A stretch of DNA of 40,421 nt from Candidatus Hydrogenedentota bacterium. Its GTDB lineage: Bacteria > Hydrogenedentota > Hydrogenedentia > Hydrogenedentales > SLHB01. A program made the position numbers and the translations under genes. The stretch spans positions 1 through 40,421 of the forward strand of contig JAIBAQ010000034.1 in the NCBI GenBank assembly GCA_019695095.1. The letters run 5' to 3'. The notes beneath the pieces were generated by a model. The model was not told the origin of the DNA. It worked only from the letters and a program-made list of their open reading frames with translations, and ran no database searches. Of this stretch, positions 6,538-40,405 are shown in pieces (position 1 is the stretch's first letter; each line of letters starts with the position of its first letter).

Positions 6538-6554
6538 AAAGAGAAGTTCTCTTT
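6538..6554. promoter_or_regulatory. Perfect 17-base palindrome, candidate operator
   Basis: AAAGAGAA-G-TTCTCTTT is an exact inverted repeat about 62 bases upstream of the methyltransferase start, where an operator would lie. No regulator gene is adjacent, so the protein that would bind it is unknown. Confidence 0.4.
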
Positions 6555-6616
6555 CTGAGGATCATGCTAAGCTCGTTCTGCTCTGAAACCGTTGTAGCGC
6601 GAAGAAGGAGGGGCAC

Positions 6617-7363
6617 TTGGACATCTTCATGGAAATACACAGCGGTTTGCCTCGGGAAGGTCCGGGAAGCAACAAATCGACGCGTGCGGCCTATGCTCTG
6701 ATGAAAGAGTTGCCTAAGGATGCCGCTGTCCTCGACATCGGGTGCGGTCCAGGCATGCAGACGCTGGAATTGTCTGCGCTCACAGAAGGCCCGATCATCG
6801 CGGTCGATACGCATGCGCCGTATCTTGACGAGTTGAACCGGCGTGCTCGCGCGGCAGGCGTGGCACATCGCATTGAGACGCGTAACCAGTCGATGTTCGA
6901 GTTGGATTTTCCCGACGCTTCGTTTGACGCGATCTGGTCCGAGGGAGCCATTTACTTCATGGGCGTCGAGAATGGACTGCGTGCGTGGCGGCGGTTCCTG
7001 AAGCCGCGCGGATACGTCGCGATCACGGAACTCTCTTGGTTAAAGCCCCGTCCACCAGAGCCAGTACGCACATTTTGGGAAACCGTTTACCCCGCCATGG
7101 CCGACATTGAAACAAACCTGGGGCGTGCCCACGCTGCCCAATACGACATCGTAGGTCACTTCACGTTGCCGGACGATGACTGGTGGACGCATTACTACGC
7201 GCCGCTCGAAGCGCGCGTCGCAGCCCTACGCGAGAAGTATCACGACGATCCCGAGGCCCTTCGGTTGCTCAATGAAGAGGAAAAGGAATTCGAGATGTTC
7301 AGGGCCTATTCGGCCTGGTACGGATATGTCTTCTACGTTATGAGGGCTTCCGCATCATCTTAA
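6617..7363 (+). CDS. Class I SAM-dependent methyltransferase
   Basis: The protein has 248 residues. The TTG at 6617 is preferred over the ATG at 6629 because AGGAGG ends five bases before it, and relatives also begin with a short stretch before IHSGLPREGPGSN. The Rossmann-like SAM-binding core is clear: motif I VLDIGCGPGMQTLEL (residues about 38-52), the acidic end of strand 2 in IIAVDTHAPYLDEL, and motif IV-like FPDASFDAIWSEGAIYFMG. It would transfer methyl groups from S-adenosylmethionine to a small molecule; the substrate is not evident. The last 26 bases overlap the 3' end of the convergent GH5 gene. Confidence 0.8.
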   Translation: MDIFMEIHSGLPREGPGSNKSTRAAYALMKELPKDAAVLDIGCGPGMQTLELSALTEGPIIAVDTHAPYLDELNRRARAAGVAHRIETRNQSMFELDFPDASFDAIWSEGAIYFMGVENGLRAWRRFLKPRGYVAITELSWLKPRPPEPVRTFWETVYPAMADIETNLGRAHAAQYDIVGHFTLPDDDWWTHYYAPLEARVAALREKYHDDPEALRLLNEEEKEFEMFRAYSAWYGYVFYVMRASASS

Positions 7364-9014
7364 GCTGCACTTCGGCCGCTTTCCCTTGCGGAGGCACGAT
7401 AAACATCGTTTTCTCGTTCTGGTCGAACTCGGGAGAGACAGATGGGCCGCCGGAAATGTCCCAGGAGTCGATCTTCTCATCTTCGGGCATGAAGATCTGC
7501 GTGGGTGCCGTGATGGCCGGGTCTTCGTTCCATACGAAGAGGAACGATCCGGCTCCGGGGTCTTTCCCATAGGAAACCAGCGACCCTGCCACGTGCAATG
7601 GAATAGCGCGGTGCAGCGCAGGAAGATATGCCGCATCTTTGACGTATCGGCCGTACTCCCAGAACGTGTCGCTGAATCCATGGCGCTCGAACTCGCGAAC
7701 CGTGAATTCGGCAGTGGGAACGATTGCTGGACCGGCGCCGCCGTAAGCGCCCCATTCGCCGATGAGAACGGGCATATTCAGTCGCTTGCCCGACTCTGCG
7801 TGCCGGTCGAAGATGAGTTTCACGCGCTCGTTCGACGCGTTCGTCAAATCCGGCGTGTCTACCACGATGTCGTAGCCGTGCGGCGCGTAGGCTTGCAGCG
7901 GATCGCGCTGGCCGTCCGGTCCCATCAGCGGTTCGAGTCCGGTACGAATGCCCATGTTGCATGCCATAAGAGTCTCGAGAAACAAAATGTGATTCGTGTC
8001 GACTTCGCGTATCGCGTTCGCGACCCGCTGAAACATCGGCACCACGTGTGCGCGCTCAAATGCTTGAACCGCTTCCTGCGGCGCATCGACGACCTTTGTG
8101 AAGATGTCGATGTCCTGCAGGCGCGTCATTAATTCGCTGCGCCCTTTCGGGTCCATCCACTTGGAGGCGACACTCAGGACGTCTGGCTTCGTACCATCCT
8201 TTGCGGCCATGGCTTCTGCAAAAGCCGAGGCCATCAGGATCTGAAGATCCGGTATGCCGCTACCTTCGTTGGGTTCGTTGAAGAGGTCATAACCGATCAC
8301 CGTCGGATTGTCCGCATAGCGTTTCGCCACGTGTTGCCACGCCAGCGCAAACCGCTCCTGAACTCCGACGCCGTCCGGGCCGGGTTTGTTCGCCCAGAAG
8401 TTGTCGAAGGACTTCTTCACCGCGGCACTCAGTTGATAGGAGTCGCTCCACACGGCGCCGGTGGTATGCGGCAGACCTTCATCCAACGTGGCCCATTCCG
8501 GCGCGCCATCACTGTACTTCACGCTGAACAAGTCCTGGTGCATGTCGAGAAAGACATAGAGCTTGTTGTCGCGCGCCCACTCGATACGCTGATCCACCTT
8601 CTTGAGGTATTCCTCATCGAATTTGCCGGGCTCCGGTTCCAAGCCGTCCCAGATGATTCCAAGCCGGATGCAGTTCATCCCCCAACGGCGCATCTGCGCG
8701 AAGTCTTCCGGGCCGTGCCAGCTTTGGTAGTTCTCCTTGGGGTCCTTGCTGATCACGGCCATACCGTGCAATAGCAGTTGACGGCCTTCGGAATCGATAA
8801 AGGCGCCATCTTTAACCGACACGAACGGCGACCTCTTCGGCGGAATGACTGCAACGGGTGGTGGCTGTGGTGTTGCCTCCTGTGTCGTCGTTTCGGGTAC
8901 GACAACAGGCTTTTCCGTGGGCGGAGGGACATCCGGAGTCGGCTGAACGGACTTTCCGCATCCCAGCGCTGCCACGAGCGCGATTAGGAAACTGCTGGCA
9001 ATTGCTATTCTCAT
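7338..9014 (-). CDS. GH5 glycoside hydrolase lipoprotein, endoglycoceramidase-like
   Basis: The protein has 558 residues. The start at 9014 is chosen because it gives a clean lipoprotein signal (MRIAIASSFLIALVAALGC, lipid-bearing Cys19); the longer frame adds 18 residues without a signal-peptide rationale. A Pro-rich spacer (about 25-60) is followed by a GH5 TIM barrel. LDMHQDLFSVKYSDGAPEWA (157-176) is typical of endoglycoceramidases. YDLFNEPNEG supplies the acid/base Glu247, and PVLIGEWGAYGG the nucleophile Glu420. A C-terminal beta domain follows. It would hydrolyse a beta-glycosidic bond, perhaps releasing the glycan from glycosphingolipids or related steryl/lipid glycosides, at the outer membrane or in the periplasm. 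Convergent with the methyltransferase; the 3' ends overlap by 26 bases. Confidence 0.8.
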   Translation of the reverse strand: MRIAIASSFLIALVAALGCGKSVQPTPDVPPPTEKPVVVPETTTQEATPQPPPVAVIPPKRSPFVSVKDGAFIDSEGRQLLLHGMAVISKDPKENYQSWHGPEDFAQMRRWGMNCIRLGIIWDGLEPEPGKFDEEYLKKVDQRIEWARDNKLYVFLDMHQDLFSVKYSDGAPEWATLDEGLPHTTGAVWSDSYQLSAAVKKSFDNFWANKPGPDGVGVQERFALAWQHVAKRYADNPTVIGYDLFNEPNEGSGIPDLQILMASAFAEAMAAKDGTKPDVLSVASKWMDPKGRSELMTRLQDIDIFTKVVDAPQEAVQAFERAHVVPMFQRVANAIREVDTNHILFLETLMACNMGIRTGLEPLMGPDGQRDPLQAYAPHGYDIVVDTPDLTNASNERVKLIFDRHAESGKRLNMPVLIGEWGAYGGAGPAIVPTAEFTVREFERHGFSDTFWEYGRYVKDAAYLPALHRAIPLHVAGSLVSYGKDPGAGSFLFVWNEDPAITAPTQIFMPEDEKIDSWDISGGPSVSPEFDQNEKTMFIVPPQGKAAEVQLKMMRKPS

Positions 9015-10416: not shown

Positions 10417-13400
10417 ATGGCCCCATTCACCTCATCCGAATCGTCGGCATTGGCGGCGTCGCAACGCGGCGATCGCAGCGCATACGGACTGCTTGTTGAG
10501 AAGTACAAACATCTGGTGTGCGCGGTCACCTACGGCACGACGGGCGACATGCACGCGAGCGAAGACCTTGCCCAAGAGACCTTTGTCGCCGCGTGGACAC
10601 ATCTTGATCGGCTGCGCGACCCCAGCGCATTTCGTTCGTGGCTCTGCGGGATTGCGCGTAACGTTGGCCTGACGTGGCTCCGGAAACGGCAGAGGGACGT
10701 TCTCACGAAGACCGCCGCGCTCGAAACAGGGCGAGGCGTGGCCGATCCCAGTCCGACGCCGCGAGAAGCGGCAATTAAGCGCGAACACGAGGCTGTTGTC
10801 TGGCATGCGCTGGAGAAGATCCCCGAAGGCTTCCGCATACCGCTCATCCTCTACTACCGGGAAGGCCGGTCGGTAGAGGAGGTGGCCAAGACCTTGGGGA
10901 TGTCCGACGCGGCAGTGCGCCAACGGCTGCATCGGGGCCGTGAATTCCTGCGCGCGCAAGTCGCGGAAGTCGTCGAGGCGTCGCTATCTCGCACGCGTCC
11001 GGGTTCAGGATTCACGGCGGGCGTCTTGGCGGCAATAGCCGCGATACCCGTGGGCACGATGGCCAAGGCGGGAGCGGCCACCGTCGGGGCGGGAATCGTG
11101 AAGAGTCTGTTGGGAGTGCTCACCACGCGTGGTCCGCTAACCGCGGGGATTTGGGCAAGCGCAGCCGGCGGCGTGGCCGTACTGTTGGTGCTGTTGTCGG
11201 GGTGGAATGCGGGCGTTCAGTCCGAACCGGAACCACTGGCAGATTCGGTTACCGAGTCAAGCAGCGCGGTAGAAGTCGATACGAAGACGTCCCCTTCACC
11301 GCCCGTCGAGCATGCAAAACCGGAGCGTGATGTCACTGAGGAGGCAACTCCGGCGGCAACGGCGGTAGATCCGGTGTCCGCACCCGAAACGTCTCCAGCC
11401 TTGAAAGCGATTGTGGTTCATCCTCCGGACAGCCCGATACACGAGTGGGACGGCCCGCTTCGTCATACCGGCCGGAAGGGTGAGATTATTGGACAGATTC
11501 TTACGTTGAATGATGAACCCGCCGGCGGCGCCGAGGTCATGTTCCACACATGGCGCGGGCCGCGTGTTGCTATTGCAGGGAAGACGCGCAGCAACGCGGA
11601 CGGCTGGTTCAGCATTGACCTGCCTCCCGGAAAGTATAGTCTCGCTGCGCAGTGGCAAGGTATGGCTGGAATCGATGGCGGTTGCAGCGCGCCGATCGTG
11701 GTAGCGGAGGGCAGTACCCTTTACACGCAAACGCGGGTCGAGCCTGGGCTTTCGGTGAAAGGCATTGTGGTCGATGACGCCACGGGGATTCCGCTCGCGG
11801 GGGTCATCGTGGTCTCAAGCGGGGGCCAGGCGCTTCGCACGGACGCTGCGGGAAGGTTTGAATTCAAAGCCCTTCACCGGAACTATGACAATACGCTCGC
11901 GGTCGTGGACGACGCCTGGTACTGCTATTCGCATGCGTTCGCTGGCGGTACAAGCGCCGTTGCTCTTGAGCTGCGCGCCCGCGCGGCGGGGACTATTCGT
12001 GGCCGAGTGACGGGAAGCGGGGGAAAGCCGATGCCGGGAGTGCCCGTGAAGCTGGCCTTGTCGGGATCGGGTTTCCAGCTATCGAACTGTCTCGCGATAA
12101 CGGACCGTCATGGTGCCTACACAATCTCGGGAGTCGATACGGAGCACTCTCGTTTGCCCGTCATGGCGCGCAGCAACGGGTATCGGCAAGTCGACGGGAC
12201 CGCGTGGGCAAGTTTTGATTCGGGAAGCCGTACTGCGGTCATCGATATTCAGCTGCGACGAGATCCTTCCGCCAAGTACGAAGAAGATGTCCCCACGTTT
12301 ATGAATGCCTACGCGGGGCCTTCAGACGAACCGGTGGAAGCGGTCGAGGAAACCGCCGAAGAGGTAGTCATGCCGTCGTCCGAAGGCAATTGGATAACGG
12401 GAAGCGTGGTAGACAATGAAGGCGAGCCCTTGTCGTGCGTCACGGTGGTTTCGAATGAGGCGCGCGCAATGACGAATGCTATGGGTGAGTTCCGGCTTGA
12501 GGGATTGACTGAGGATGGCCGCATCAAGGTCCGCGCCATTTCTCGCGGCGATACGGGCCCTGGCGGCACACTCGCGGAGTTGCAGGTTAACCGCGGCAAT
12601 CAGCGCATCGTCGTTCAAACACCCGAATGCGAGGTGGTTGGACAGGTCCTGGACAAGGTCACGCACAAGCCCATTCAACGATTCTGGATCAAGATTAGCC
12701 ATTCAACGGACACAAGCCCGATGGACTTCCGAGTTTATGGTGAAGAAGTGCTGGTCAATTCAGAAGACGGCACGTTCCAACTCGGCGACATTCAGGCGAA
12801 GGCGGGTGTTCACGGGAGGCTTACGGTACGCGCGGACGGATACTCGCTGGCGACTGTTCCGCGCGTGAGACTGCATTCCGTGGGCAACTCAGGCATGGAC
12901 AGCCCGCGTATCGAATTGACAGCCTCGCCGATGCCGGGTGGATTCAATGGCGTGATTGTGGACAGGGCGACCGGCGTGCCGTTGGACGGTGCGCGGATCT
13001 CCATCAATGAGGCCGACGGTGTTGCAGCCGGGACGTTTCCGTACTCGTTTCCGTTCTCCGGTTGGGACAGTACCGTCACGAATTTCCCTGGGTCGCAGCA
13101 CGCCACAACTGACGCGCAAGGCGTGTTTTCGTTCCCCGATTGGGCTGATAGCAAAGGCTGGGTTGCCGTCGAATGCACGGGGTACGGCCGGTACTGGCTT
13201 CACGATGTACCTTTCTCCACGCCGTTCAGACTGGAGATGGAACCGCAGGCGGTGTTGACGGGAAGCGTTGCCACGCCGGTCGATCCGAATGGGTTGGGGG
13301 GCGGCGTTACTATTTTCTGGATGGATGGCAACGAGGCCATTTGGAATGAATGTGTTCCAATCAACGACGACGGTACGTTTTATTGCGATAGACTTGCACC

Positions 13401-13494
13401 AGGGCGGTACATGGTGCATTCGTACGGCCTCCAGATCTGGCATAAGGAGAACATCACGTTGAAGGCCGGCGAACGGCGCGAGATTCATTGGTAG
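10417..13494 (+). CDS. ECF-type sigma factor fused to membrane anchor and carboxypeptidase-regulatory-like repeats
   Basis: The protein has 1025 residues. Residues about 15-90 are sigma-70 region 2 (YGLLVEKYKHLVCAVTYG, ASEDLAQETFVAAWTHLDRL) and 125-180 region 4 (ALEKIPEGFRIPLILYYREG, then the helix-turn-helix SVEEVAKTLGMSDAAVRQRL). A hydrophobic stretch at 200-235 and a clear membrane span at 245-263 (WASAAGGVAVLLVLLSGW) follow. The remaining 700 residues hold several carboxypeptidase regulatory-like/CnaB-type beta-sandwich repeats, recognisable by GxVxDxxGxPLxGxxV and TDAxGxFxF signatures. The predicted topology puts the sigma part in the cytoplasm and the repeats outside. A sigma factor tethered this way could read out cell-surface ligands, or be released by proteolysis. 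A second fusion of the same plan is at 25811-28228. No anti-sigma gene is nearby. Confidence 0.8.
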   Translation: MAPFTSSESSALAASQRGDRSAYGLLVEKYKHLVCAVTYGTTGDMHASEDLAQETFVAAWTHLDRLRDPSAFRSWLCGIARNVGLTWLRKRQRDVLTKTAALETGRGVADPSPTPREAAIKREHEAVVWHALEKIPEGFRIPLILYYREGRSVEEVAKTLGMSDAAVRQRLHRGREFLRAQVAEVVEASLSRTRPGSGFTAGVLAAIAAIPVGTMAKAGAATVGAGIVKSLLGVLTTRGPLTAGIWASAAGGVAVLLVLLSGWNAGVQSEPEPLADSVTESSSAVEVDTKTSPSPPVEHAKPERDVTEEATPAATAVDPVSAPETSPALKAIVVHPPDSPIHEWDGPLRHTGRKGEIIGQILTLNDEPAGGAEVMFHTWRGPRVAIAGKTRSNADGWFSIDLPPGKYSLAAQWQGMAGIDGGCSAPIVVAEGSTLYTQTRVEPGLSVKGIVVDDATGIPLAGVIVVSSGGQALRTDAAGRFEFKALHRNYDNTLAVVDDAWYCYSHAFAGGTSAVALELRARAAGTIRGRVTGSGGKPMPGVPVKLALSGSGFQLSNCLAITDRHGAYTISGVDTEHSRLPVMARSNGYRQVDGTAWASFDSGSRTAVIDIQLRRDPSAKYEEDVPTFMNAYAGPSDEPVEAVEETAEEVVMPSSEGNWITGSVVDNEGEPLSCVTVVSNEARAMTNAMGEFRLEGLTEDGRIKVRAISRGDTGPGGTLAELQVNRGNQRIVVQTPECEVVGQVLDKVTHKPIQRFWIKISHSTDTSPMDFRVYGEEVLVNSEDGTFQLGDIQAKAGVHGRLTVRADGYSLATVPRVRLHSVGNSGMDSPRIELTASPMPGGFNGVIVDRATGVPLDGARISINEADGVAAGTFPYSFPFSGWDSTVTNFPGSQHATTDAQGVFSFPDWADSKGWVAVECTGYGRYWLHDVPFSTPFRLEMEPQAVLTGSVATPVDPNGLGGGVTIFWMDGNEAIWNECVPINDDGTFYCDRLAPGRYMVHSYGLQIWHKENITLKAGERREIHW

Positions 13495-34225: not shown

Positions 34226-34284
34226 ATTGCCCCAAGCCTCGTATGGGTTGCGGACTGCGGATAGACGCGAAGGGGTATGCGGCT

Positions 34285-34734
34285 ATGGGATCACGAATCC
34301 TGTTCCTGGATCAGGATCTCGACCATGTCAGCAGACGTTTGCGCGGGGTCCTCTCCGAAGCGGGACTTGATCATCGAGTCGAATACTTCGACTCCGATAA
34401 AGCTCTCTTGGAACGGCTTTTGGGTCCACTCGACGACATTATGCTCACCATCATTCGCGTGCGCGACAAAGAGCATCTCGTTCAGCTTGCGATCCACAGC
34501 ATGTTCTTACGAGGTATCCGCGTAGTCGTCGTATTACCTGAAATGGGTCACGAGAGCATCACCATTGCACACATCTTTCATCCCAGCCTCGTGCTAAGCG
34601 TCGAGGACGACTTCGGCGAAGTCGCGGCGATAGTGGACAAGCTGATGCGCTCTGAAACGGAAGAAGGCAATTGCAGTCCGGGCGGTCCGTCTCCCAGGCG
34701 AGCAGCGGCATATACCAAAGCGGCGGACGAGTGA
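34285..34734 (+). CDS. Degenerate CheY-like (pseudo-receiver) protein
   Basis: The protein has 149 residues. The start at 34285 is chosen because AAGGGG lies 9 bases upstream and because the earlier ATG at 34243 would leave almost no leader after the sigma-54 start. The opening SRILFLDQDLDHVSRRL mimics a receiver strand 1 with its acidic pair, and the spacing of later strands (DDIMLTIIRVRD, GIRVVVVLPEMG, PSLVLSVEDDFGEVAAIVDKL) fits the receiver fold. The usual phospho-acceptor Asp at the end of strand 3 and the Lys of strand 5 are not recognisable, so phosphorylation is unlikely. The last 28 residues are a disordered tail. First gene of the chemosensory unit. It could be a phosphorylation-independent adaptor. 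The fold assignment is moderate. Confidence 0.5.
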   Translation: MGSRILFLDQDLDHVSRRLRGVLSEAGLDHRVEYFDSDKALLERLLGPLDDIMLTIIRVRDKEHLVQLAIHSMFLRGIRVVVVLPEMGHESITIAHIFHPSLVLSVEDDFGEVAAIVDKLMRSETEEGNCSPGGPSPRRAAAYTKAADE

Positions 34735-34750: not shown

Positions 34751-34762
34751 TTGGGTACCCAA
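34751..34762. repeat. Perfect 12-base palindrome before cheW
   Basis: TTGGGTACCCAA lies 18 bases before the cheW start codon, just upstream of its Shine-Dalgarno (AGGGAGA). It is a possible operator or a chance palindrome. Confidence 0.3.
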
Positions 34763-34780
34763 AACAGGGAGAAAGCGATT

Positions 34781-35293
34781 ATGACCTATTCAGACGCGAA
34801 AACCACTACAGGGCGCTCGTTCGGGGCGGCGGGCAAGTATCTGACCTTCACCCTGGGGGAGGAAACGTACGGACTGGAAATCCTGACAGTCCAGGAGATC
34901 ATCGGCATATTGCCGGTGACGCATGTACCCAACACGCCCGCCTACGTGCGGGGCGTAATCAACCTTCGCGGAAAAGTGATCCCCGTCGTGGACCTTCGGC
35001 TGAAGTTTGGTTTGGAAGCGGCGCAAGACACAGAGCGAACCTGCATCATCGTGCTGCAAACCAAACGCGAAGACGGTATTCCGTCAACGACGGGAATCAT
35101 AGTCGACTCGGTCTCCGAAGTGCTGGCCATCACGGAAGAGCAAATCGAAGAACCACCTTCTTTTGGAGATTCGGTGGAAATCGATTTCCTGAAAGGCATC
35201 GCGAAAGTCGGCGACAAAGTGTGTGAATTACTGGATTTGGAGCGCACGCTGTCTAGCGCGGCCATTGTCGCAGCGGCAGAAGGCAAGGCGTAG
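34781..35293 (+). CDS. cheW: Chemotaxis coupling protein CheW
   Basis: The protein has 170 residues. CheW links chemoreceptors to the CheA kinase in membrane arrays. After a disordered start of about 17 residues the SH3-like double barrel runs from [20 protein letters not shown] to LLDLERTL. The conserved receptor/CheA-binding block [18 protein letters not shown] (56-73) and the [13 protein letters not shown] strand are intact. The start at 34781 is chosen for AGGGAGA upstream and the typical short N-terminus; the longer frame would begin upstream, within the palindrome. It is 46 bases after the receiver-like gene and 83 before the first chemoreceptor, so likely in one operon with them. Confidence 0.93.
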
Positions 35294-35376: not shown

Positions 35377-37434
35377 ATGTTCACAAATCTTACGCTTGGA
35401 AAGAAGATTGCCGTCGGTTTCGGCACGTTGATGCTCCTCATGGCATTTCTGGGCGGTCTGGCCGTGTGGAACATTGGTTCGGTACGCCAGCAAATCACGT
35501 ATTTGACCACCGAGAATATTCCCGAAGTGCAAGTCGCTAACGACGTGGAGCGGCATTCACTGCTGACGATGTACAACATGCGAGGGTATGCGCTGAGTTA
35601 CGACCCGAAATTCTGGGATCAGGGCGCGACCGAACTCGAGTCGGTAAAGAAGTATCTCACCGACGCGAAGGCGATGGGCGACAGCACTCCGCGACTGGCG
35701 AAGCTGAAAGAGGCTGCATCGATTGCAGAGGAGCATGCGCTGGAGTACGAAGGATTGGCGAAGCAGTCCAAGGAGACCATCGACCAAATCGCCAAGGACC
35801 GCGAGACATTGAATGAAGCTGCCAAGAAGTACATGGACGTCTGCTACGCGTTCCTGGCAGGTCAGGAAGCAAAGCTGCGCGAGGAGCTGACCGGCAAAGC
35901 GGCCGAAGGCGACGCAACGGCGCAAGCAGGAGCGACGACGGGGGCGATTACGCCGGATAAGCTGGTCCAGCGAGCAGACAAGGTCACGATCGTCAACAAC
36001 ATTATCGACCAAGGCAATGAGACTCGAATTGCCGTGTGGAAGGGCCAGGCCCTGAACGATGCAAAGTCGATTGAGGAGGCCCTGAAGAACTTCGATGAAA
36101 TCGCCAAGTTGCTTGAATCCCTCAAGCCGATCACGCACCTGGAAGAGGACCTAAAGCGCATCGAAGAGTGCAATGCGGCCGGAATGGAATACAAGACAGC
36201 CATGACAGAACTTGTCGGGTCCATGACGAAGCTCGCCGATATTTCGACGAAACGGGGCGAGGCTGCGCAAGCCGTGCTCGACCAGGCCCAGAGTACGGCG
36301 AAGATGGGTATGGACGACACGGTTCGCGTGGCGACGGCGGCGGTGTCGGATGCTTCCACCCAAATCATCATTGGATTCTGCATCTCCGTGGCGATTGGCA
36401 TTGTAATGGCATTGCTCATCACCCGCAGCATCACGCGCGCGATCACAATTATCATCGGCAATCTCCGCGAAGGCGCGGCGCAGGTTAATAGCGCTTCACA
36501 GCAAGTAGCCCAGGCGAGCCAATCGATGGCGGAAGGCGCGAGCGAACAAGCGTCATCGCTGGAAGAAACTTCCGCGTCTCTCGAAGAACTCACTTCGATG
36601 ACCCGGCAGAACGCGGAGAACGCCAACAAGGCCAACGCGATGACCATCGAAGCGCGCAACGGCGCCGACAAGGGCCGCGCGGCCATGAAGGGGATGATGG
36701 AAGCAGTGGCCCAGATCAAGTCATCGTCCGACGAGACTGCGCGCATCATCAAGACCATTGACGAAATCGCGTTCCAGACGAATCTGCTGGCGCTGAATGC
36801 GGCGGTGGAAGCGGCACGGGCGGGCGACGCAGGCAAAGGCTTTGCGGTGGTCGCCGAGGAAGTACGCAACCTGGCGCAGCGCAGCGCGGAAGCGGCAAAG
36901 AACACCGCTGCCCTGATAGACGAATCGAAGAAGAACTCCGATCGCGGCGTGGCGGCCTCCGACGAAGTCGCGTCGATCCTCGAGCAGATCGCCGATTCGG
37001 TCAGCAAGGTCGCAACGCTGATGGCCGAAGTGTCCGCGGGTAGCAATGAACAAGCGCAAGGCATCGATCAGATTTCGACGGCGGTTGCACAGATGGACAA
37101 GGTAACGCAAACAACAGCAGCGAATTCGGAAGAAGCGGCTTCCGCGGGCGAGGAACTGTCTGCGCAAGCCCGCGAATTGAATGAAATGGTGGCCTCGCTG
37201 ACCGCGCTCATCAAAGGGCGCGCGGCAGCGGAAGCAGATCTTAGGAGCGACGGGAACGGACTTGCTCTCGGTTCCGGTAAACGCCGTGTCGCCACGCTCG
37301 GTTTCTCAGGCGGCAACGGAGACCGTCGCTCCAAGTCCTCGACAGGCACCGCATTGGCGGCGCCGTCGGCGCGTTCACGCGTAGCCAGTCCGGAGCAAGT
37401 GATTCCTCTTGACGAGGACATCAAAGACTTCTAG
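35377..37434 (+). CDS. Methyl-accepting chemotaxis protein with helical sensor domain
   Basis: The protein has 685 residues. TM1 (about 11-33) and TM2 (about 329-349) enclose a mainly helical periplasmic domain of about 295 residues, resembling helical bimodular (HBM) or four-helix sensor domains ([20 protein letters not shown]). A disordered linker, roughly residues 172-192 ([15 protein letters not shown]), sits in its middle. After TM2 there is no recognisable full HAMP; the coil leads directly to adaptation helices ([18 protein letters not shown]) and the signalling tip [20 protein letters not shown]. The tail ends [13 protein letters not shown] and lacks a CheR-tether pentapeptide. AAGGAGAA precedes the ATG. 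The ligand is unknown. The downstream receptor is its paralogue and has a carbonic anhydrase domain in place of the linker. Confidence 0.93.
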
Positions 37435-37485: not shown

Positions 37486-37612
37486 CTCCACACCTCCGAG
37501 ATTGTGAGTGCGCGATGCATGGGCGGAACTGGGAAATGTCGCCGCGGACTACACACGAGCAACAGCGTACCTTCCGCAATGCCATCGAAAAACTGCTAGA
37601 GGAGAGAAACGA

Positions 37613-40405
37613 ATGTATTCAGGCATGACGCTTGGGAAAAAGATTGCCGGGGGCTTTGGGATCCTGATGATTCTGATGGGCCTTCTGGGCGCTCTGGCCG
37701 TTTGGAACATCGGGGCAGTTCGACAGCAGGTGACTCATCTGACGACGGAGAACCTCCCCGAAGTTGAAGTGGCAAACGAGGTGGAGCGCAATTCACTCAA
37801 AACGATGTACCAGATGCGCGGGTTCGCTCTGAGCGAGGAACCCAAGTACTGGGAAGAGACGAACAAGAATCTGGATGCGGTAAAGAAGTATTTGACGGAC
37901 GCGAAGACGCTGGGGGGAAGCACTCCGCGCCTGGCGAAGCTGCTGGAGGCCGCGACAGTCGCCGAGGAGCACGCGCTGGAGTATGAACGGCTCGCCAAGC
38001 AGACCAACGAAAAGATCACGGCCATCACGGAAAGCCGCACAAAGCTTAATGAGGCGGCCCAGACATTTATGGAGCAGTGCGCTTTGTACCTGGCAGGCCA
38101 GGAAAAGAGCATGGCGAGCGACATCACGGGCGAGGCCGCACCCGCGGCCACGCAGGCCGAGCCGGCTCAGCATGCCGCGGCCGCCAAAGAGACCGAGGCG
38201 GCCCCGGTGGCGGTGCCGGAGTGTCCGGACGGCGATGCGGTGATACAGAAGTTGAAGGAAGGGAACGGCAGGTTTGTGGCCGGCGCCAGCCAGCACCCGG
38301 ATGCGACGGCGAGCCGGAGAACGGACACGGCACAGAACGGTCAGAAGCCAATCGCCACTATCATCGGGTGTTCGGATTCGCGCGTTCCGCTGGAAGTGGT
38401 CTTTGACCAGGGGATCGGGACGCTTTTTGTAGTGCGCGTGGCGGGGAATGTCTGCGACACGGACGAAATCGGCTCAAGCGAGTATGGAGTGGACCATCTT
38501 GAGACGCCGTTGCTTGTGGTGCTTGGGCACACGAAATGCGGCGCGGTGACGGCGGTTGCAACGAATGCAGCGCTCCACGGCAACCTGCCGGGTCTGGTGG
38601 ACAACATCGGCCCGGCGGTAGCCGCGGCGAAGGCAGGCGCGGCGAATCTGTCGGGCGACGCGCTGGTAGACGCGTCGATTCGCGCGAACGTATGGCAGTC
38701 GATCGAGGACATGCTGCGCCGCAGTCCTGCCATTCAGGAACGGGTGAAGGCGGGCAAGACGAAGGTCATTGGCGCAATGTATCACCTGGACTCGGGCGAG
38801 GTCGAGTGGCTGGGGCCGCATCCGCGCCTGGGCAGCCTTCTTGCGGAACCGGCGGGCGCGCCTGGGCACGTTGCGGCCGGCGAGACCTCACACGCAGGAC
38901 CGACGAAGGTTGCGTCGGCTCCCGAAAAGCTGATGCAACGGCTGGGCAAGATTGCCACGGCAAACAGGGTTGCCAATCTAGGACAAGAGACGCGGGTGGC
39001 CGTGTGGAAGGCGCAGGCATCGCGCGACCCCAAGCTCATTGAGGGTGCGTTCGGGAACCTGGATGAAATAGAGAAGGAACTGGCGTCACTGGTTCCCATC
39101 ACGACTCAGGCCGCCAACCTGGAGCAGATCGAGAAGACGCGGGCGGCCGCACAGGAATACAAGGCGGCAATGACGGTTCTACATGATGCCATGGTGGAAC
39201 TGGCCGAACTCGGCGCGAAGCGGCAGGAAGCGGGCGATCAAGTTCTCGCACAGGCAGAGAGCACAGCCAAGCTTGGGATGGAGGATACGGCGCGGGTAGC
39301 GACGGCGGCAGTTTCTGACGCATCAACGCAGATAGTGATTGGTTTCTGTATTTCGGCGGCGATTGGCATCGTGCTGGCGCTCTTGATAACGCGGAGTATT
39401 ACACACTCGATCACGGGCATCATTGGCGGCTTGCGGGAAGGCGCGGCGCAGGTGAACAGCGCGTCGCAGCAGGTGGCGCAGGCGAGTCAGTCGATGGCGG
39501 AAGGCGCAAGCGAGCAGGCGTCATCGCTCGAAGAAACCTCTGCGTCGCTGGAAGAGCTGACGTCGATGACGCGCCAGAACGCGGACAATGCAATAAAGGC
39601 GAACTCCATGACCATCGAAGCGCGCAACGGAGCAGACAAAGGGCGCGCGGCCATGCAGGGCATGATGGAAGCGGTGGCCCAGATCAAGTCATCGTCGGAC
39701 GAGACGGCACGGATCATCAAGACCATCGACGAAATTGCGTTCCAGACGAATCTGCTGGCGTTGAATGCGGCGGTGGAAGCGGCGCGCGCCGGCGATGCGG
39801 GCAAAGGATTCGCGGTTGTGGCCGAGGAGGTGCGCAACCTGGCCCAGCGCAGCGCGGAGGCAGCCAAGAACACGGCGGCACTGATTGACGAGTCGAAGAA
39901 AAACTCCGATCGGGGTGTGGCCGCGTCCGAGGAGGTGGCAGCGATCCTGGAGCAGATTGCGGGTTCGGTAGGAAACGTGGCTGCGCTGATGGCAGAGGTT
40001 TCCGCGGGCAGCAATGAGCAGGCGCAGGGTATCGAGCAAATTTCGACGGCTGTCGCGCAGATGGACAAGGTAACGCAGACGACAGCGGCAAACTCGGAGG
40101 AGGCTGCATCGGCGGGCGAGGAGTTGTCGGCCCAGGCGCGCGAACTGAACGAGATGGTGGCCAATCTTACGGCGCTGATCAGGGGCCGTGCCGCGGCAAA
40201 CGATGACCTGGGATACAACGGCGGGCGTACTTCGAGCGGGCATGGCGCGCGGCGAGCAGCAGCACCGGGCCATGCGATCAAGAGCATCGACCGCCGATCC
40301 GGTTCCACTGGCAGGACAGCGCTGGCATCGGCGCCGGCGCGGTCACACGTAGCCAACCCCGAGCAGGTATTGCCTCTGGATGACGATGAGATGAAGGACT
40401 TCTAA
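37613..40405 (+). CDS. Chemoreceptor with beta-carbonic anhydrase inserted in its periplasmic sensor domain
   Basis: The protein has 930 residues. The start at 37613 follows GAGGAG and aligns with the neighbouring receptor's N-terminus. TM1 is about 11-33, TM2 about 572-593. Residues 34-170 match the first half of the paralogue's helical sensor domain, and 436-571 its second half. Between them lie an Ala/Pro/Glu-rich linker (172-202), a complete beta-carbonic anhydrase (about 203-402) and a second Gly/Ala/Pro-rich linker. The enzyme site is intact: GCSDSRVP (Cys253, Asp255, Arg257) and GHTKCGAV (His306, Cys309). After TM2 come methylation helices and the signalling tip [20 protein letters not shown], nearly identical to the paralogue's; HAMP is not recognisable. 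CO2/bicarbonate sensing is inferred, not shown. The fusion is one continuous frame with no stop or shift. Confidence 0.93.
38219..38818 (+). other. Embedded beta-carbonic anhydrase domain (residues about 203-402)
   Basis: This part of the chemoreceptor gene encodes a full-length bacterial beta-carbonic anhydrase. It opens with [20 protein letters not shown], continues with the zinc motif GCSDSRVP, the strand [14 protein letters not shown] and the second zinc motif GHTKCGAV, and closes with [15 protein letters not shown]. Beta-carbonic anhydrases interconvert CO2 and bicarbonate. No separate ribosome site or start context is needed; it is in frame with the receptor on both sides. Domain edges are estimated by eye. 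Confidence 0.92.

Follow-up and report, generated by a model that had tools for sequence, protein, structure and literature searches.

Helical sensors of the HBM fold can be driven by periplasmic proteins that dock onto them, as TorT does on TorS and XylFII on LytS. HBM chemoreceptors bind small organic acids, malate and acetate in the case of McpS (PMC9600550, PMC5126104), and their ligand sites lie at the dimer interface (PMC9600550, PMC5126104, PMC5449446). Ligand binding was found to be pH-robust over a broad range in the two HBM receptors tested (PMC9600550). Among chemoreceptors associated with bicarbonate, TlpA is reported as a receptor for arginine and bicarbonate (PMC5245789).

The window analysed here is the whole stretch of DNA, an entire contig of 40421 bp from a member of Candidatus Hydrogenedentota, an uncultured group. 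Its last gene encodes a chemoreceptor whose sensor bears an attachment of a new kind: the protein runs in the order TM1, first half of an HBM sensor, linker, beta-carbonic anhydrase (CA), linker, second half of the HBM sensor, TM2 and MCP domain. The receptor, its parts and its chemotaxis neighbours, all on the plus strand, are the following.

34751..35293 (+): CheW (Pfam E 2.5e-40), two genes upstream of the window receptor
35377..37434 (+): HBM chemoreceptor of 685 aa, tandem paralogue lacking the CA (Pfam, alignment, sensor tree)
37600..37604 (+): AGGAG ribosome-binding site, 8 bases 5' of ATG 37613 (read in the sequence)
37613..40405 (+): CA-inserted chemoreceptor gene, 930 aa (frame, Pfam, homologue in genome G048)
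37646..37711 (+): TM1, about residues 12-33 (hydropathy)
37712..38128 (+): first half of the HBM sensor, helices a1-a3, residues 34-172 (AlphaFold2 secondary structure; the paralogue model resembles McpS 2yfa)
38129..38230 (+): flexible linker 1, Ala/Pro/Glu rich, residues 173-206 (pLDDT <50 at 174-207)
38231..38845 (+): beta-carbonic anhydrase domain, residues 207-411 (Pfam; PDB sequence match 2a5v/1ym3, Rv3588c; Foldseek 2a5v)
38369..38539 (+): active-site residues Cys253, Asp255, Arg257, His306 and Cys309 (sequence alignment)
38846..38917 (+): flexible linker 2, residues 412-435 (pLDDT <50 at 412-436)
38918..39328 (+): second half of the HBM sensor, helices a4-a6, residues 436-572 (AlphaFold2 secondary structure; alignment to the paralogue)
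39329..39388 (+): TM2, residues 573-592 (hydropathy)
39410..40192 (+): MCP signalling domain, residues 600-860 (Pfam; Foldseek to Tsr 1qu7 and to the core signalling unit 8c5v)
40193..40405 (+): C-terminal tail and stop; the tail ends [10 protein letters not shown]

Upstream, the frame is open as far as a GTG at 37508; it closes with the stop at 40403-40405, and the ATG at 37613 agrees in the alignment with the start of the paralogue, [10 protein letters not shown]. Pfam recognizes the full Pro_CA profile (positions 1-156) over residues 248-397 (E 3.4e-38, 131.8 bits against a cut-off of 25.7), MCPsignal over residues 667-821 (E 3.7e-44, 151.1 bits against a cut-off of 34.6) and, weakly, 4HB_MCP_1 over residues 5-92; it found no HAMP domain in this receptor. 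Hydropathy predicts only two hydrophobic segments, at about 7-36 and at 574-592, which flank the sensor and the CA and give the TM1 - periplasmic sensor - TM2 topology of MCPs. The earlier note had read this architecture in the 930-residue frame, and Pfam, hydropathy and the alignments to the paralogue and to the G048 homologue bear it out; the zinc ligands Cys253, His306 and Cys309 and the Asp255/Arg257 dyad that it had named are all present in the aligned CA. The C-terminal ending (40370-40402, +), closely matched in the paralogue, in G048 and in L013, resembles a CheR/CheB-type tail tether.

Also encoded in this genome are a CheA-type domain and a complete FHIPEP protein of the FlhA family, and the nearby CheW together with this CheA-type domain is consistent with a predicted coupling of the window receptor to CheW/CheA. 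Between an NtrC-type regulator and CheW lies a 163-aa frame without Pfam match (34243-34734, +). Elsewhere in the window (10417-13494, +), a 1025-aa frame joins a Sigma-70-type (ECF-like) factor to several CarboxypepD_reg domains. Genes downstream of the receptor are unreadable because the receptor gene reaches the contig end, stopping 16 bp before it.

The insertion is precise, since the upstream tandem gene is the same receptor minus CA. Residues 1-176 of the window receptor are 64% identical to the paralogue, a 514-column stretch starting just past the CA is 75% identical, and in the place of the CA the paralogue has a short Ala/Thr-rich linker. A full-length homologue with CA at the same site is encoded by G048, a genome of the same Hydrogenedentota family but of a different genus (L071:7371-10232:-). 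The two proteins share 51% identity over 933 alignment columns: 40% and 47% in the two parts of the sensor, 63% in the CA and 63% in the signalling domain, so the enzyme equals the signalling domain in conservation.

The sensor sequence of the window receptor gave no useful match in the PDB, and the HBM profile PF16591 (cut-off 29.8) reaches 32.9 bits in the G048 homologue and 25.4 bits in the paralogue, the window protein being unlisted by Pfam. The fold is seen in the paralogue sensor modelled alone (pLDDT 72.6), a six-helix bimodular bundle like that of McpS by both Foldseek (2yfa, E 9.8e-5, prob 1.0, TM 0.77 on target) and VIA (Z 17.3, rmsd 4.4, 235 residues aligned). It also matches the TorS-TorT and LytS-XylFII complexes. 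The full-length, single-chain AlphaFold2 model is moderate overall (mean pLDDT 55.8), and we claim no detailed geometry from it. Helices are predicted confidently over much of the sensor, as is the second half of the CA, while both linkers (174-207 and 412-436) come out as disordered. Foldseek aligned the CA of this model with Rv3588c (2a5v, E 2e-9) and the signalling part with Tsr 1qu7. The helices measure about 40 residues from the membrane (a1), 25 (a2), 67 (a3), 33 (a4), 24 (a5) and about 66 (a6). Since these lengths, rather than coordinates, trace an out-and-back path that is farthest at the a3-a4 loop, we infer that the CA is probably inserted at the membrane-distal tip of the sensor.

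In the genome collection and in order- or class-wide genome sets, 12 more CA-MCP proteins were found, the CA being N-terminal in every one, in Hydrogenedentota, Planctomycetota, Sumerlaeota, Spirochaetota and Thermodesulfobacteriota; a 924-aa CA frame in G539 is left out of this count. They comprise one protein each from Spirochaetota (L010), Sumerlaeota (L017) and Hydrogenedentota (L013), five from Phycisphaerae (L011 and L014, with two CAs each, L019, L034, and L197, whose genome was sampled within the class of L011) and four from Desulfobacterales and relatives (L020, L021, L023, L198). Their order is signal-peptide-like segment, CA, linker, TM, TM1, helical sensor, TM2 and MCP domain, the N-terminal hydrophobic segment being clear in 11 of the 12 and, by eye, weaker in L017. 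Genes of this kind often adjoin CheW and other MCPs. In L199 (4572-6521:- and 6553-8697:-), a 650-aa protein with signal peptide, two CAs and a TM directly follows an HBM chemoreceptor and CheW; as read from the gene order, this is a split version of the CA-receptor fusion, encoded by neighbouring genes. The location that the earlier note had assumed gains from these relatives, as the signal-peptide-like segments and the CA-CA protein of L199 indirectly favour a periplasmic rather than a cytoplasmic enzyme.

The motifs C-x-D-x-R and H-x-x-C are retained in 16 of 16 fused CA domains; loss of the zinc residues is thus not a habit of the homologues, and a decayed pseudo-enzyme is ruled out. This retention, with 63% identity in the CA against 40-47% in the sensor, indicates that the CA is under constraint. 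The fusions occur in 3 of 68 Hydrogenedentota genomes, about 3 of 198 genomes of the Phycisphaerae class (frames >880 aa) and 2 of 194 genomes of the Desulfobacula order, values that are lower bounds because a single CA sequence served as query. Three or four families at least, seemingly unrelated, are represented among their helical sensors: HBM, 4HB in L010, one in L013, L020, L021 and L023, and another in L011, L014, L017, L198 and, more weakly, L019 and L034. A plasmid search returned, among the matches listed, free CAs only, none spanning the whole query, and viral contigs gave matches to the MCP signalling domain only. A Planctomycetota MAG encodes a secreted CA joined to TPR-like repeats and a long linker of Pro, Thr and Ala (L007:5602-7671:+), and an HBM sensor of the present kind stands at the head of a 1425-aa hybrid (L196:4754-9028:+) in which, in place of an MCP, a histidine kinase with several receiver domains is recognized by eye.

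That no characterised receptor of this design was known, as the earlier note had put it, stands for the open literature searched, which contains no description of a CA-bearing chemoreceptor; subscription journals or annotated protein databases may already mention the domain pair. The design is not a singular one, with at least 14 sequences in five phyla, mostly with N-terminal CA.

Several fusion origins are likely, because the MCP-fusion label changes 7 times on the CA tree, a quick tree of 120 domains with many weak branches, at least 3 of these changes being required by well-supported branches; a single origin of all fusions is accordingly disfavoured. The two internally inserted CAs, of the window and of G048, are nearest each other (support 78) and fall outside the main groups of N-terminal fusions. 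The sensor tree places the window receptor as sister of the CA-less paralogue in tandem with it (100/99), and sisterhood of the two CA-inserted receptors was rejected (AU p 6.5e-5). The motif CP[DE]GDA just before the CA is common to both inserted receptors, and the paralogue linker contains EGDA (window 35899-35940, +), possibly the trace of a lost CA, a stretch short enough to be there by chance. Since the two CAs lie closest together on the CA tree and share this motif and the window sensor groups with the paralogue, the simplest reading would be one insertion followed by loss of the CA in the paralogue; the window and G048 receptors may instead have acquired it in two separate insertions.

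We propose, with a probability of about 0.5, that the tethered CA would make periplasmic bicarbonate or protons follow CO2 and that the helical sensor would read these products. Uncatalysed hydration of CO2 takes tens of seconds and a swimming cell compares concentrations over a few seconds. Hydration alone being slower than this comparison, a tethered CA would let local bicarbonate and/or pH track CO2 in real time, on the swimming timescale. A domain with these zinc and Asp/Arg residues is expected to hydrate CO2. Held by two flexible linkers in the membrane-distal a3-a4 loop, the periplasmic CA would be active and would equilibrate CO2 + H2O with HCO3- + H+ beside the receptor; the helical sensor would then detect bicarbonate or protons and pass the signal through TM2 to CheA/CheW. 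The CA and the sensor are placed on the outer side of the membrane by the insertion between TM1 and TM2 and, in the N-terminal fusions, by the signal-peptide-like segments and the extra TM. The enzyme would supply the sensed species by proximity rather than through a rigid allosteric link, because it is found inside the sensor (2 proteins), N-terminally behind a TM (12 proteins) or as a neighbouring gene (L199). We count in favour of this mechanism the retained catalytic residues and the conservation of the CA, the predicted disorder of the linkers, the CheW and MCP neighbourhoods together with the genomic CheA-type domain and FHIPEP, and the match of the paralogue model to McpS, since the ligands of HBM receptors are small organic acids, to which bicarbonate, also a small anion, is similar. 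Three points weigh against it: a common bicarbonate or pH pocket is not evident because the fusion sensors span three or four families, the tandem paralogue manages without CA, and simple pH sensing is argued against by the two tested HBM receptors that bind their ligands pH-robustly (PMC9600550).

Of the other explanations, the one that survives best, unlikely as we judge it, is that the receptor array merely anchors the CA, which would have a periplasmic metabolic or pH-buffering job such as CO2 trapping or bicarbonate supply, and that the receptor senses something unrelated. An anchored enzyme would agree with the joining of CA to several different sensor types, with the TPR-like repeats that replace the receptor in L007, and with the stand-alone CAs, closely related to the fused ones and several with visible signal peptides, that are common in the same groups. 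It accounts poorly for the repeated joining to MCPs in particular, in CheW/MCP neighbourhoods; the tip of a sensor is moreover an odd place to anchor an enzyme, and the other Pro_CA of this genome is an unfused 224-aa protein. We regard as rather improbable that the CA itself senses, the HBM helices being moved directly when the zinc site binds CO2 or bicarbonate or switches with pH between open and closed states. The resemblance of the paralogue model to TorS-TorT and LytS-XylFII, in which a periplasmic partner signals to such a bundle, and the insertion in the a3-a4 loop at a site conserved in G048 would suit such a switch; the linkers of about 34 and 24 residues, predicted to be disordered, do not, and no rigid coupling common to all fusions is possible because the N-terminal CAs lie apart from the TM1-TM2 path, separated from it by a further TM.

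Very doubtful is a CA domain acting on another small molecule of the beta-CA superfamily, for instance COS or CS2, with a receptor that responds to a product such as sulfide: carbonyl sulfide hydrolase is a member of the beta-CA family (3vqj, among the PDB sequence matches) and several fusions come from sulfate-reducing lineages, but Rv3588c is by far the best PDB match (E 2.4e-41 against 2.6e-4 for COS hydrolase). We give still less credence to the CA as a tolerated intruder without signalling role, for which the intact CA-less frame of the paralogue and its EGDA, if a scar, could be invoked; both the conservation of the CA between genera, above that of the sensor, and the catalytic residues, lost from none of the 16 fused domains, oppose it. 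That assembly or binning wrongly joined a CA gene to an MCP, the danger raised beforehand and suggested by a gene at the extreme contig end, is refuted by the identical junctions in the independent genome G048, by the match of both halves around the CA to one paralogue and by the many further CA-MCP fusions.

Sensing of CO2 for bacterial taxis is poorly known, and among characterised chemoreceptors we know of none whose sensor includes an enzyme. CA-receptor fusions span five phyla or more, so that CO2 may be sensed in some bacteria through a receptor-attached enzyme. At slightly less than even odds, we would see in them a dispersed class of enzyme-armed chemoreceptors, CO2 sensors for taxis in which a tethered CA makes the sensor's own ligand, bicarbonate or protons from CO2, and which evolved repeatedly, whether by insertion, by fusion at the N-terminus or by pairing of genes, across five phyla or more. 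The CA-MCPs are in any event concrete, testable candidates for such sensors: one active-site point mutant would separate catalysis from binding, and the natural pair of the window, a receptor with and without CA, is a ready control.

Each of the known systems shares part of this design. McpS of Pseudomonas putida (HBM; PDB 2yfa, 2yfb) has the sensor fold, as judged from the model of the CA-less paralogue, the periplasmic sensor and the MCP output; it is without enzyme domain and only about 10-12% identical in sequence across the aligned sensor. TlpA of Helicobacter pylori is an MCP with reported bicarbonate taxis (PMC5245789, citing Cerda 2003, 2011), whereas that paper mentions no CA and leaves it unclear whether the bicarbonate sensing of TlpA is direct. 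TorS-TorT and LytS-XylFII combine a helical sensor of similar fold with a periplasmic protein, but their partner is a separately encoded binding protein instead of an inserted enzyme and their output is a histidine kinase. The Mycobacterium tuberculosis beta-CA Rv3588c (PDB 2a5v, 1ym3) is the closest solved CA by sequence and fold and its zinc-ligand and Asp/Arg motifs align with those of the window CA; it is a free enzyme, whereas the CA of the window is part of a receptor.
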